From Thermochromatium tepidum ATCC 43061 (GTDB lineage Bacteria > Pseudomonadota > Gammaproteobacteria > Chromatiales > Chromatiaceae): a stretch of DNA of 64,000 nt. The stretch is taken from contig NZ_CP039268.1 in assembly GCF_009664085.1 (NCBI RefSeq), positions 1,349,501 to 1,413,500 on the forward strand, given 5' to 3'. The notes beneath the pieces are model-generated. The model worked only from the letters and a program-made list of their open reading frames with translations. It did not search any database and was not told the origin of the DNA. A program made the position numbers and the translations under genes. Shown one piece after another: positions 14,993-48,072 of this stretch. Numbering within the stretch: position 1 is the stretch's first letter; each line of letters begins with the position of its first letter.

Positions 14993-15574
14993 ATGACCGA
15001 ATATGCGCTCATCCTGGTCGGCACCGTGCTGGTCAACAACTTCGTGCTGGTCAAGTTCCTTGGACTCTGTCCCTTCATGGGCGTATCCAAGAAACTGGAG
15101 ACCGCGACCGGCATGGGGTTGGCAACCACCTTTGTCATGACACTGTCCTCGGTCATCACCTGGGTGGTCAACAAGTTCGTGCTCGTACCGCTCGAGATCG
15201 GCTATCTGCGCACCATCTCCTTCATCCTGGTGATCGCGTCCGTGGTGCAGTTCACCGAGACGGTGATGCGCAAGACCAGTCCCATGCTCTATCAGTTGCT
15301 GGGCATCTTCCTGCCGCTCATCACCACCAACTGTGCCGTGCTGGGCGTGTCCCTGCTCAATCAGCAGGCCGCGCACACCTTGGTCGAGTCCGCGCTCTAT
15401 GGGTTCGGTGCCGCCATCGGATTTTCATTGGTACTGACGCTCTTTGCCGCCATCCGCGAGCGGGTCGCCGTGGCCGATGTGCCCGAGCCGTTTCAGGGCA
15501 GTGCCATCGCGCTGGTGACAGCCGGACTGATGTCGCTGGCCTTCATGGGGTTTGCTGGTCTGGTCCCAAACTGA
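14993..15574 (+). CDS. rnfA: Rnf complex subunit A
   Basis: A 193-residue, six-helix inner-membrane subunit of the Rnf electron transport complex, which couples ferredoxin:NAD+ electron transfer to ion translocation. The two inverted RnfA/E signature stretches are clear: [20 protein letters not shown] near residue 15 and [21 protein letters not shown] near 103, each with the conserved cysteine. The ATG at 14993 matches the family start. rnfB follows after 64 bases. Confidence 0.96.
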
Positions 15575-43408: not shown

Positions 43409-45073
43409 TCAGTAGCCTAGCAGCGGCTCCTCGACCCCAGTCGGGGTATTCTGATCGACCCAGGGATGGACGTTGAAGCCGGCCGTCTCGATCATGGCAT
43501 CCCGGCCCTCGATGAAGCTCTGTTCCTGGACGATCACCCGATAGGCCTTGTTGAGCTGCATGGCGCGCCCGGGCGAGGCATAGAGCAGGACGCTGATGTC
43601 TTCACGCAACCGTTCGAGCATCTCGGGCCTGAGCTCGCCGTTGGCGTTGAAGAAACGCTCGCGCACCTCGCGGTTCTGGCGGAACTCGTCGCCCGCGCCA
43701 TTGGCCGCGAGATAGAAGGCATATTCCGGCTCACCATCGCGCCGCTGCGGCTCGGGCAGACCCTTAAGTCCCCTCTGGCTCCAGTGATGCCAGCCGCGCT
43801 GGAAGCCGTCGGCCCCAAGGCGGCGCGGAAAGGCGAAGCTCGAATCCGTGGTCGCACCCAGCCCGCCGTGGCAGCCGACACAGAAGGCCAGTTCCTCATA
43901 GCTCTGCGGGCGCAACTGCCCCTCGGCATCCTCGATCAGTCCCGAATAGACCCAGCCCTGGTCATTGCTGACCCCAGACTCGATGTTGCCCCGAAAGACC
44001 CGTACCCGATCGGGGAAGTCGTGCCTCTCCTTGAACTCGGCGGCCTGGCGGCTGTCGAGTTCGGCATAGCTCATCCAATAACGTTTCTTGGCATGGCGCA
44101 CCTCTTTCATGCGCGCGGCAAGCTGGTTGTCGCCTGAGTCATCGACATCGATATAGCGCACCGTATGCAGGAACTCGGTGCCCTCCGGATAGAGCCCGGC
44201 GGCCAGATGAACCCGCCCGGCGCGTTGTTCCGCAAGCGCCTGGCCGACGTACCACATCTGGCGTCCCTCGCGTGGCGCCCAGTCGTAGCGCACCCACTCG
44301 GCAGTGCCGAGGCGGCCATTGCGATCGAGATCGACCCCACCGAGCCTGATCTCGTCCACCGGCTCGATCGGGATGTCGCGCCGGCGGATCAGGGACTCGA
44401 TGATGGCCAGATTGGTCTTGTAGACAGTGCGGTCGAATTCACCGGCCAGATTGCGTCGGAAAGGCTCGTCCAATCGGATCAGCACATCATCGGTCGAACC
44501 ATTGGTCGGCCAGAAGGTGCCGACAAAGGGGTAATAGCCGAAGGCACGCCAGCCGGTCGGCCGACCCTCCGGATCGAGATCGAAGCCCTCGTCGTCGAAG
44601 CGGAAATAGGCATCTGGGATATAACCGTCCCAGCGGCCGTTGTCATCGTAGTCCCAGTCTTTCGGTAGTTCGGCCAGGCGCTGGGCGGGGATGATGCGGC
44701 CCTCGGCATCCAGATAGTTGCTCTGACGGATGTAGGCGCGCATCTCATCATCGCTGATCGCGGCCATCGCCGCACGCCGATCCTTGTAGAGATTCTTCCA
44801 GGGATTCTCTTCGGCCGGCGCCGGAAAGCTGAAGGTCAGTTGCAGGTCCTGGTCGTTGAGATAGTTGGGTGGCTGCGATTGGGTGTGACAGGCATAACAG
44901 GGATTGTGGACCCGACCCTGGCCGTCGATCGTCTTGGTGTAGCACTGGGAGACGATGTGGGGCGTTTCGTTCTTGAGGATCCGCTCATCGAGCCCGGCGC
45001 TCGGGGCGGAATCGGCCCAGGACAGACCGAGCAGGATGGACAGCATGGCGGGAAAGCAGGAGGGACATGACAT
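43409..45073 (-). CDS. Exported di-haem protein with EF-hand-like loops
   Basis: A 554-residue protein I cannot assign to a named enzyme. A hydrophobic N terminus ends near WADSAPSAG (residue ~26), suggesting export. Two c-type haem sites are visible: CYACH at 59-63 and CVGCH at 398-402. A perfect EF-hand loop lies at 248-259 (D248, D250, N252, G253, L255, E259), and imperfect D-x-D-x-[NS]-G loops at 141-152 and 309-315. The centre is rich in aromatic and acidic residues. The first in-frame start after a stop is the ATG at 45073, without a clear ribosome binding site; an ATG at 45046 is possible. It follows the PhoX-like gene after 137 bases. Confidence 0.8.
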   Translation of the reverse strand: MSCPSCFPAMLSILLGLSWADSAPSAGLDERILKNETPHIVSQCYTKTIDGQGRVHNPCYACHTQSQPPNYLNDQDLQLTFSFPAPAEENPWKNLYKDRRAAMAAISDDEMRAYIRQSNYLDAEGRIIPAQRLAELPKDWDYDDNGRWDGYIPDAYFRFDDEGFDLDPEGRPTGWRAFGYYPFVGTFWPTNGSTDDVLIRLDEPFRRNLAGEFDRTVYKTNLAIIESLIRRRDIPIEPVDEIRLGGVDLDRNGRLGTAEWVRYDWAPREGRQMWYVGQALAEQRAGRVHLAAGLYPEGTEFLHTVRYIDVDDSGDNQLAARMKEVRHAKKRYWMSYAELDSRQAAEFKERHDFPDRVRVFRGNIESGVSNDQGWVYSGLIEDAEGQLRPQSYEELAFCVGCHGGLGATTDSSFAFPRRLGADGFQRGWHHWSQRGLKGLPEPQRRDGEPEYAFYLAANGAGDEFRQNREVRERFFNANGELRPEMLERLREDISVLLYASPGRAMQLNKAYRVIVQEQSFIEGRDAMIETAGFNVHPWVDQNTPTGVEEPLLGY

Positions 45074-45139
45074 GGCAGAGGTACCGATTGACGCGAACGG
45101 CCTTCATCCATCGAGGCAGAGGGCGAAAGCCCCCCTCCT

Positions 45140-45172
45140 CGCCTCGGACCGGCACGCGACCGATCCGAGGCG
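45140..45172. other. Stem-loop between the PhoX-like and di-haem genes
   Basis: CGCCTCGGA (45140-45148) and TCCGAGGCG (45164-45172) form a perfect 9-base-pair stem around a 15-base loop that can pair further. There is no T tract, so RNA processing or differential expression of the two genes is as likely as termination. Confidence 0.55.
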
Positions 45173-45210
45173 ACCTGGGGAAGCCCCCCGACTTCAAATG
45201 CGAGCGGAGC

Positions 45211-47046
45211 TCACTTGTTCATGGCCGGGAAGACGAAGTAACCGGTGTAGCCCATGAGCTGCCCGGGTTCTTCGAGCTTGTCGGAATCCGACTCGCCATA
45301 GGGATGCTGGACGACCGACATCAGGTAGGCAAAGCCATTGATGTTGGGATAGAAGTAGGGTGAGGTGGTCTCAGAACCATAGGGTGTGGTCTGGATCCGG
45401 GTGAGCTGGCCTGAGGTCAGGTTGTACGCCCAGATCATGTCATTCTGATGGCCGGCCCCCGTGTCCTCGCCAATGAGGAGGGTATCATAGCCCGGCATAT
45501 AGGTGATGTTGTCCGGGTTGGCAATGCCATTGAGATCGCACTTGTTGACCCCGTCATAGTCGGGCGACTCGGCACTGGCGCCATAATCCATGGTCAGCGG
45601 TTTGCCAGCGACGACCTGGAACATGTCCACGGCGGTGAAGTTCCCATCCAAGTGCAGCCCATAGACCGCGCCGCAGACATTGGCCTGACTCAGCCGGATG
45701 TGGTTTGGGCCACCGAGGTCATACTTGTCATAGGTTCCTTGGGCTCGACCGGCGCGGCTGTAGTCGAGCATGCCGCGATCGACCTCGGACATCGCCAGAT
45801 AGAGTCGATTGCGATCCGGGTCATAGGTGATGCCCTCCATCTTGCGGAACTCGGTTGTGCCGCCCTGCATCGCCGCCCAACGGCGTGTCTCCAGGCGCGA
45901 GGCGATGTTTTCATCCATCCAGTTGATGTTGCCGTCCTGGTTGATGTCACGCAGCCTGAGACACTGATGACTACCGTCGTCATGCCCGGCGTTGATCGAG
46001 GTAAAGCCCTCAGGACAGCTCGGCTTGGCACCCTTGACCGCCGCGACCGGTTTGGCCTCGTCGAAGATGTCGGCGAAGCGATAGCGCTCGATCCAATCGC
46101 GGACCTCGTCGTTCGTGGTCCAACCGAGATAGACCCAGTTGAGCTTGGCCAGACCGGAACCTCGCGCATCCTTTTGATTCCACTGGGCGACCCAGAGCGC
46201 GCCCGCGCTCAGATCGCCTGGCCGGCTGGCGACGAAGCGGTAGAGACCGACGTTGGTCCCATCATCGGACAGATAGACGGTCTTGCCATCGGGCATCACA
46301 TAACCGAGCTCGAGCGCGATGCGGCCCATGGCATAGTGCTTCTCGACCCGGACCGAGTCGAAGTTGTCGACTCGGACCTCGATCGGCCAGCCATAGTTAT
46401 AGGGGTTCATCACCGCCCCAGCCTCCGCCGGCGTGGCATCAAAATAGGCCGCCATGGCGGCGTTGTAGTCGCTGATGGTGCCATCGCGCCACTGCTTGGC
46501 GTCCGGCTCATATTCTTCTGAACCCAGATGAGTGCCCCAGGGGGTGACGCTGCCGGCACAATGGACCCAGCCGCCCTTCAGAGACGAGAAATCGAGCGGG
46601 CGGGTGCGCAGCGCGGTCAGGTGTCCGTTGTTCGGATCCTGGGCAAGCTCGGTCAGATACATAGCACCCGGGCGCGACTCGAAGTGCGAGACCATGTAGA
46701 GCTTTCCATCGCTACCGTGCAGCAGCGAGGAGAAATCGTTGTCGTTGGAGATATAGGGCGAGCCGTCTTCGGCGAACAGCGGCTGGCCGTGGATGTCATA
46801 GAGCTGACCGAAACGGAATCCGTTCGGATCCAAGGCGCCGGTCTGGCCGGAACGCAGGATGAGGTTGTAGCCGAGATTGACCGTCACCCCATCGACGACC
46901 GCCTGGGGCGAGGTCAGGATCGCGCGCTTCTCGGCGTCCGTATGTGGGATCGGTGCCTCGCTAAAACTGATGGTGCCGGCAAAAGCCGATGCACCGCATC
47001 CAAACGCTAGAATCGTCGCTACCGTCTGTTTAACTAAAGACTCCAT
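45211..47046 (-). CDS. PhoX/DUF839-type exported protein with calcium loop
   Basis: A 611-residue DUF839 (PhoX-like) beta-propeller protein. A Sec-type signal peptide (MESLVKQTVATILAFGCGASAFAG) is seen without the twin arginines usual in PhoX. Family motifs are HCAGSVTPWGTHLGSEEYEPD (162-182), LSDDGTNVGLYRFVAS (259-274) and MEGITYDPDRNRLYLAMSEVD (403-423). An inserted EF-hand-like loop, D367-N369-D371-G372-I374-D378, lies in a segment with two cysteines. Alkaline phosphatase activity is plausible but not proven: the family also has non-phosphatase members. The ATG at 47046 has GGAG 6 bases upstream; a GTG at 47058 is the alternative. Confidence 0.82.
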   Translation of the reverse strand: MESLVKQTVATILAFGCGASAFAGTISFSEAPIPHTDAEKRAILTSPQAVVDGVTVNLGYNLILRSGQTGALDPNGFRFGQLYDIHGQPLFAEDGSPYISNDNDFSSLLHGSDGKLYMVSHFESRPGAMYLTELAQDPNNGHLTALRTRPLDFSSLKGGWVHCAGSVTPWGTHLGSEEYEPDAKQWRDGTISDYNAAMAAYFDATPAEAGAVMNPYNYGWPIEVRVDNFDSVRVEKHYAMGRIALELGYVMPDGKTVYLSDDGTNVGLYRFVASRPGDLSAGALWVAQWNQKDARGSGLAKLNWVYLGWTTNDEVRDWIERYRFADIFDEAKPVAAVKGAKPSCPEGFTSINAGHDDGSHQCLRLRDINQDGNINWMDENIASRLETRRWAAMQGGTTEFRKMEGITYDPDRNRLYLAMSEVDRGMLDYSRAGRAQGTYDKYDLGGPNHIRLSQANVCGAVYGLHLDGNFTAVDMFQVVAGKPLTMDYGASAESPDYDGVNKCDLNGIANPDNITYMPGYDTLLIGEDTGAGHQNDMIWAYNLTSGQLTRIQTTPYGSETTSPYFYPNINGFAYLMSVVQHPYGESDSDKLEEPGQLMGYTGYFVFPAMNK

Positions 47047-47247
47047 GTTGTGCTCCACGGGTTCGGAGTTGGGAAGGCTTGGACCTTATGAGCGCCAAAA
47101 GCATAGAGAGGTTTGATGACGCTTGGATGTCCATTGCGTGACGAATCCATGAGTCACCGGTCTAGACCCTTGGATCGAGCCTCCCATAAAGACCCACCAA
47201 TCACTGTATGCCCCTTGATCAGTCGAAAATTCTTTGGGAGACCCTCC

Positions 47248-47439: not shown

Positions 47440-48072
47440 GTGTTCGTGCGCAATCGCCATCATTTCGGCGTACGTCTGGTCTTGGCGATCGGGGCGATGG
47501 CGCTCTTCGTCCTTGGCTATCAGTGGGGCAATCAGTACAGATTCGGCTCCACCGCGCCCCCCGAGATCCGGGGCGTCCTGATCCAGCCGCCGGGCGAGAT
47601 CCCGGAGTTCGGCCTGCGCGACCCATTCGGGCGGTCGGTCGGACGCGCGGATCTGGTCGGCAGCTGGACCCTGCTGGCGTTTGGGGATCTCGCCGAGGCC
47701 ACGGGGCAGCGTGCCGCGCAACGCCTGATCGAGACCCGCAACCGGCTCTCTGATCGACCCGAGCTGATCGAGAGGCTCCAGTTGATACTGGTCCAGACCA
47801 GCGAGCGGTTGGAGCTGGCACGCGACTTCGCCCGTCTCTCGCCAGTGTTACGACCGCTTGCCGGGCCGCCCGAGTCGATCGCGCCACTGCATGAAGGACT
47901 GGGGTTGGTAAGCGGGGTTGGACCCATGCTGTTCGTGATCGGTCCCGACGCGCGGCTACGCGCCATCCTGCCCGAGACCGAGAGCGGCGCCGCCATGGCC
48001 GAAGATGTCAAGGCGTTGATGGCGAGTGATCGGATCAGCGTTTCAGCATCTCCATCACTACCGCGGCCATGA
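47440..48072 (+). CDS. SCO1/SenC-like membrane-anchored protein without CxxxC
   Basis: A 210-residue protein with one N-terminal transmembrane segment (LVLAIGAMALFVLGYQWG, ~residues 13-30) and a thioredoxin-like region. PEFGLRDPFGRSVGRADLVGSWTLLAFGDL (about 54-83) and GPMLFVIGPDARLRAILP near 163 resemble SCO1/SenC copper chaperones. The copper-binding CxxxC and the later histidine are missing; the product has no cysteine. It may be a degenerate or non-copper member. The start is a GTG at 47440 without a clear ribosome binding site. Confidence 0.65.
   Translation: MFVRNRHHFGVRLVLAIGAMALFVLGYQWGNQYRFGSTAPPEIRGVLIQPPGEIPEFGLRDPFGRSVGRADLVGSWTLLAFGDLAEATGQRAAQRLIETRNRLSDRPELIERLQLILVQTSERLELARDFARLSPVLRPLAGPPESIAPLHEGLGLVSGVGPMLFVIGPDARLRAILPETESGAAMAEDVKALMASDRISVSASPSLPRP

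Follow-up and report, generated by a model that had tools for sequence, protein, structure and literature searches.

A widespread, very probably Pho-regulated PhoX module with a dihaem partner of the cytochrome P460 fold

Do two exported proteins that are encoded side by side, one related to the phosphatase PhoX and the other carrying two c-type haem motifs, belong to one system, and what would that system do? The question is raised by a 64,000-nucleotide stretch of the genome of Thermochromatium tepidum ATCC 43061, which is 2.96 Mb on one contig (NZ_CP039268.1, positions 1,349,501 to 1,413,500; referred to here as the window). The coordinates of the open reading frames (ORFs) place a PhoX-like (DUF839) gene first and a dihaem gene 137 bases downstream of it, both on the minus strand (Table 1), as they had been described in an earlier note on this DNA. 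That note also proposed that the two genes form a system acting in redox or phosphoester chemistry and that calcium is used in both of its parts. The pair is found here to be a widespread Pho-regulated PhoX module, the dihaem partner of which has the cytochrome P460 fold and stands outside the named families; EF-hands are not its basis.

We used the dihaem protein alone as the query to select loci for the comparison, with one genome per species, and obtained 79 named contigs. The PhoX-like gene adjoins the dihaem gene in 77 of them, lying upstream on the same strand in 72 and divergently in five; in the two exceptions the dihaem gene begins at the contig edge. The contigs belong to Chromatiaceae, Methylococcales, Thiotrichales, Thiomicrorhabdus, Alcanivorax, Thalassolituus, Microbulbifer and Catenovulum. 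Further contigs belong to Campylobacterota, Desulfobacterota, Deferribacterota and Myxococcota, as well as to metagenome-assembled genomes of Calditrichota and Planctomycetota, and the pair is found in at least seven bacterial phyla. A Pseudoalteromonas replicon in PLSDB also carries it, labelled ‘alkaline phosphatase PhoX’ and ‘hypothetical protein’. Among the loci L107, L122, L124 and L067, those of Thiomicrorhabdus have two tandem PhoX-like genes before one dihaem gene; L067 has a single PhoX gene followed by two dihaem genes.

At the level of the order, 195 genomes were surveyed with each protein as query; the dihaem protein is present in 55 and PhoX-like relatives in 82. The PhoX-like gene is found in 54 of the 55 genomes with a dihaem gene, as against 28 of the 140 others (Fisher p 5e-26), and in 49 of the 63 places where a dihaem gene occurs it is located directly upstream on the same strand, 98–441 bases away. 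The pairwise identities of the two proteins are correlated (r 0.68, against at most 0.11 in 1000 permutations). The flanking genes are not conserved, and no third family is constant across the loci. Chance neighbourhood was rejected because the pair is kept while its flanks change, and an operon enlarged by a constant third member was rejected because the next commonest neighbour family, made up of mixed signalling proteins, occurs at 18 of the 79 loci. A functional link between the two genes is therefore nearly certain: the co-occurrence of homologues across genomes, which the earlier note had put forward as the check on its idea of a system, supports that idea. The family has a patchy distribution, being present in eight of 398 genomes from across the phylum, and on its tree the labels of the phyla are intermingled, which suggests horizontal transfer.

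Concerning regulation, promoters were scored with a PhoB-box matrix that follows the published consensus rather than a curated collection of sites; it finds this genome's own boxes, with clear triple boxes before phoB and pstS. The promoters of the PhoX-like genes (90 sequences, some from related genomes and hence not independent) score higher than 663 promoters taken as controls from these contigs (p 5e-11). A score of at least 10 is reached by 34% of them, 9% of the controls and 6% of the shuffled sequences, and 30 of the 31 sites at or above this score are in forward orientation, mostly 66–155 bases before the start. Near relatives keep the half-sites of the window and the TATGCT element that follows them, while the surrounding sequence varies. 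PhoB and PstB are encoded in this genome. In other genomes, pstABC genes lie near the pair at four loci (L067, L126, L137 and L139), phoBR at one (L073) and phoB at another (L084); PhoA-like genes stand beside it in Microbulbifer, and PhoA-like neighbours are found at L110, L118 and L127. Control of the operon by the Pho system is very probable, and the boxes and these neighbours agree with the earlier proposal that the system concerns phosphoesters.

The dihaem gene can also be looked at separately. Of 11 dihaem genes that do not adjoin a PhoX gene, six carry boxes scoring 11.4–18.8, the lower value being reached by 6% of the controls. The genomes with these six unlinked genes (L150–L154 and L156) have a PhoX-like gene elsewhere. 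Such strong boxes before unlinked copies give the dihaem protein its own tie to phosphate, and on the sequence of its promoters it looks like a Pho-regulon protein in its own right. As to PhoX-like genes in genomes without a dihaem gene, six of the eight checked score 6.6 or less (G034, G036, G039, G061, G140 and G091), in a small sample in which the G140 match began inside the gene, so that the sequence scored is not its true promoter.

The PhoX-like protein matches Pfam PhoX (PF05787) with an E of 5e-22 and 79.2 bits (cut-off 24), its profile matches PhoX structures at 2e-10, and its best fold match is PhoX itself (4a9v, E 3.6e-17). Seven of its residues, C167, E182, E250, D266, K406, E408 and D516, align with PhoX C179, E194, E273, D292, R385, E387 and D479, respectively, and all seven are invariant across 18 aligned homologues. 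We take C179, E194, E273, E387 and D479 to be metal- or catalytic-site residues of PhoX. The roles of R385 and D292 in the site have been described, and lysine at the position of R385 is also found in the active phosphatase Psip1 (PMC11098088). Based on the invariance of these residues, the catalytic site is very likely intact, and the protein is probably a phosphatase. A decidedly improbable alternative is that the propeller and its metals have been kept for another reaction needed under phosphate starvation. When the structures are aligned, the protein is only 17% identical to PhoX, and a serine occupies the position of the basic PhoX residue K171, both of which would suit such a change of function; against it, no homologue departs from the seven checked site residues by more than a conservative replacement, and a distant lipoprotein PhoX of Flavobacterium adds measurable phosphatase activity in its host (PMC8812569).

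The export of this subfamily also differs from that of PhoX. No credible twin-arginine signal is present among 87 N-termini of PhoX-like proteins, where the four RR matches all precede the start methionine, and a lipobox is present in 36; the window protein has a signal of the general secretory (Sec) type, as the earlier note had read it. The use of the twin-arginine translocation (Tat) pathway by PhoX and PhoD has been argued to reflect the insertion of iron in the cytoplasm (PMC4223295). From this and the lack of a Tat signal we infer that the PhoX-like protein gains its iron outside the cytoplasm, with metallation linked to Sec export. A fusion of a PhoX-like protein with a phytase-like domain (PF13449) is encoded in a Hydrogenimonas bin, right after a pst operon (L126:6757-9894).

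The dihaem protein contains exactly two CXXCH motifs, and no Pfam or NCBIfam model matches it above cut-off; a well-characterised family with an unrelated role, which the earlier note had named as the outcome that would speak against its proposal, was thus not among the matches. In 46 homologues, with identities down to 38%, neither motif varies, nor does an additional cysteine, C44. The nearest named relatives are the proteins of Allochromatium palmeri and A. humboldtianum, which are 91% identical to that of the window. Residues from about 130 to 420, including the second haem, have the fold of cytochrome P460 and cytochrome c'-beta in the structure model, an assignment which is based on the agreement of four methods and not on Foldseek alone, where the P460 match has an E of 0.024. 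The model aligns with 9hrk with a VIA-align Z of 5.9 and a root-mean-square deviation of 3.5 over 135 residues; the first 17 structural matches belong without exception to the P460/c'-beta superfamily, and the next, unrelated one has a Z of 2.3. In hhalign against P460 (P 7.7e-5) the PEGT, GW(Y/F), CXXCH and DxxF motifs are aligned in that order. Several homologues match the Pfam P460 model (PF16694) at 1e-3 to 1e-5 and one of them (L113) passes it, with 28.1 bits against a cut-off of 27, whereas the window protein itself stays under the cut-off. Two sequence profiles of the dihaem protein (A1 and A4) found no match in the PDB up to an E of 10. Identity with MauG or cytochrome c peroxidase was rejected, as neither the window protein nor the scanned homologues have a Pfam match to these families. 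Some dihaem proteins are extended at the C-terminus, by a PD40 propeller with a third CXXCH in four (L081, L087, L105 and L137, from Geobacter, Desulfocapsa and Planctomycetota bins) and by a Cytochrom_D1-like propeller in three (L134, L123 and L138, from Sulfurovum and Sulfurimonas).

The lysine that forms the cross-link in cytochrome P460 (Lys78 in Methylococcus capsulatus; PMC11928373) is absent; the aligned position, H303, is His or Gln in all 46 homologues, and P460-type chemistry is accordingly not expected of this protein. The same missing lysine is a trait of cytochrome c'-beta, and together with the fold it would allow the second haem to bind gas, sensing or scavenging nitric oxide or another ligand and so protecting the iron site of the phosphatase. 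This is improbable: His or Gln stands where Met or Phe is listed for c'-beta proteins (PMC11928373), the strand RMKE.R is invariantly charged in the dihaem family, and neither strict Pho control nor linkage to PhoX is expected of a general gas trap. It is also unlikely, though less so, that under phosphate starvation the dihaem protein works as an independent redox enzyme, oxidising or reducing a phosphorus-bearing substrate (a compound of reduced phosphorus, a protected ester, or a ferric phosphate mineral at the cell surface), after which PhoX would finish the release. Pairing with PhoX that is near-obligate is tighter than a shared regulon requires, and the replacement of the cross-link lysine argues against oxidation of the P460 type. 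In its favour are the strong Pho boxes kept by the unlinked copies, the lipobox in 34 of 107 N-termini of the family, which would permit a position at the surface, the catalysis that the P460 fold supports in other proteins, and the propeller fusions with a third CXXCH, which suggest a catalytic or electron-relay role.

As for the calcium-binding loops, the PROSITE EF-hand pattern matches once in each window protein, where the expectation after shuffling of residues is 0.008 (dihaem) and 0.012 (PhoX-like) per protein. The EF-hand-like loops described in the earlier note are thus real, and they are largely lineage-specific. The full pattern is found in seven of 46 dihaem relatives, most of which lack the acidic twelfth residue, although 45 of the 46 keep a DxDxDG-type loop; on the PhoX side it is found in nine of 18 relatives, and the insertion is missing from the others. 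Both are single loops, not the paired helix-loop-helix of the EF-hand family, and neither protein family keeps the full loop. A pair coupled by calcium, in which EF-hands of both proteins bind the ion and link phosphatase and redox activity, would be in line with the matches above shuffled expectation and with the widely kept DxDxDG loop; with half of the aligned PhoX homologues lacking their loop and acidic position 12 missing from most dihaem loops, it is exceedingly improbable. EF-hand coupling was therefore rejected as the essence of the pair, and the idea that calcium is used in both parts is not upheld. Calcium in the PhoX-like protein, if any, is expected at the PhoX catalytic site and not in the EF loop.

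The reading that we prefer, tentatively, is that of one PhoB-controlled phosphate-starvation operon, in which a PhoX-type phosphatase is accompanied by a dihaem redox partner for its maturation or re-activation. Phosphate starvation, sensed via PhoR and PhoB, would induce both genes, and both proteins would leave through Sec, the PhoX-like protein unfolded and often as a lipoprotein. Classical PhoX is exported folded and already metallated through Tat; the PhoX-like protein would instead gain iron in the periplasm or at the surface. The dihaem protein, having received its haems from the c-type maturation system, may then oxidise incoming Fe(II) or hold the phosphatase site ferric, and the phosphatase with its ferric iron/calcium site would free phosphate from organic phosphoesters. 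A maturation or redox-partner role for the dihaem protein is a conjecture drawn from this analysis as a whole, and its closest precedent is found in Flavobacterium johnsoniae. There, the phosphate-induced lipoprotein PhoX (fjoh_2478) is inactive when expressed alone in Pseudomonas putida and shares an operon with a phosphate-induced MauG-like cytochrome (fjoh_2477), for which the authors suggested a cofactor role (PMC8812569). A narrower form of the proposal, which we consider rather doubtful, is that the P460-fold dihaem family is a dedicated maturation factor of the periplasm or surface that installs the iron/calcium cofactor of Sec-exported PhoX or keeps it ferric, independently of the MauG-like solution of Flavobacterium and as an alternative to Tat export of the pre-metallated enzyme.

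Several observations weigh against the operon with a maturation partner, or against parts of it. Some closely related Sec-exported PhoX-like proteins are encoded in genomes that lack a dihaem gene, with no haem protein next to them (G007 with 70% identity, G090 with 66%, and also G034, G036, G039 and G061), and orphan PhoX genes mostly have no other haem neighbour; related proteins that stand alone indicate that the phosphatase-like protein can sometimes do without the dihaem partner. Certain dihaem genes, in turn, lie apart from PhoX. The Pho box of the window is weak, with a two-unit score of 8.3 that is reached by 21% of the controls and a modest three-unit score that is reached by 3%. Additional propeller domains and a third haem in some dihaem proteins are not explained by a simple iron-oxidising role, and the dihaem model is of low confidence over its first 96 residues, which include the first haem.

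The features of the locus are presented in Table 1. A ClpA-like gene on the plus strand lies downstream of the pair and converges on it. Upstream of the PhoX-like gene, a small exported redoxin-like ORF without a Pfam match is found on the plus strand (window 47440-48072). A further Pho-box-like match, with a score of 17.1, is located on the plus strand at window 15132-15160, within the ORF 14993-15574 before ferredoxin-type ORFs (an rnf-like cluster), and is probably due to chance.

Table 1. Position of the two genes and their features in the window
Feature	Position	Strand	Remarks
Dihaem protein gene	43409..45073	-	554 amino acids; Sec-type signal peptide; two CXXCH; 46 homologues aligned
Cytochrome P460/c'-beta-like fold (dihaem protein)	43814..44686	-	Spans roughly residues 130-420 and contains a long insertion; H303 where P460 has the cross-link lysine
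Second haem site CVGCH	43868..43882	-	Residues 398-402; invariant; aligned with the cytochrome P460 haem site
EF-hand-like loop DLDRNGRLGTAE (dihaem protein)	44297..44332	-	Residues 248-259; conserved in its DxDxDG core but not at position 12
Second DxDxDG-type loop DYDDNG (dihaem protein)	44636..44653	-	Residues 141-146
First haem site CYACH	44885..44899	-	Residues 59-63; invariant in aligned homologues
PhoX-like (DUF839) gene	45211..47058	-	615 amino acids from GTG; alternative ATG at 47046; Sec-type signal peptide
EF-hand/dockerin-like insertion DINQDGNINWMD (PhoX-like protein)	45913..45948	-	Residues 371-382 from GTG (367-378 from ATG)
PhoX metal-site motif CAGSVTPWGTHLGSEEY	46510..46560	-	Residues 167-183; C167 = PhoX C179, E182 = PhoX E194
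Candidate -10 element TATGCT	47100..47105	-	10 bases after the last half-site; kept among near relatives
Pho-box-like site TCGTCACGCAATGGACATCCAAGCGTCAT	47116..47144	-	TCGTCAC-GCAA-TGGACAT-CCAA-GCGTCAT; three half-sites, 11-bp spacing; upstream of the PhoX-like gene

In the sea and in fresh water, PhoX-type phosphatases play an important part in the cycling of phosphorus, and the iron that they require is considered to limit the scavenging of phosphate. Since the pair occurs in so many phyla, a haem protein may frequently take part in such scavenging. If the proposal is correct, a conserved haem partner under Pho control would alter the annotation, expression and assay of these enzymes, as expression of the phosphatase alone may make it look inactive; the iron cost of phosphate scavenging would include the synthesis and export of haem; and the P460/c'-beta fold, hitherto known for hydroxylamine and nitric oxide chemistry, would have a new function.

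Literature searches on PhoX, DUF839 or the Pho box in connection with dihaem or c-type cytochromes found no pairing except the remark on Flavobacterium (PMC8812569). The view of the earlier note that PhoX with a c-type cytochrome is not a standard arrangement is to be qualified by this one published precedent. Compared with PhoX (P. fluorescens PhoX, 4a9v/3zwu), the window protein shares the Pfam family, the best fold match, the iron/calcium-site residues and Pho control; it differs in its export by Sec (its relatives are often lipoproteins) rather than Tat, in the Lys for Arg385, in the EF-hand-like insertion and in the dihaem partner. Psip1 of marine picocyanobacteria has a PhoX-like iron/calcium site with the same Lys, but is described as a separate family whose sequence homology to PhoX is very low (PMC11098088). 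Cytochrome P460/c'-beta (PF16694) shares with the dihaem protein the fold and the order of the conserved motifs, one homologue being over the cut-off, whereas the dihaem protein is much larger, has an additional N-terminal haem and a long insertion, lacks the cross-link lysine, and is Pho-regulated and paired with PhoX. The phoX operon of Flavobacterium likewise combines a PhoX induced by phosphate starvation with a c-type haem protein; its partner is described as MauG-like, whereas the partner described here has the P460/c'-beta fold.

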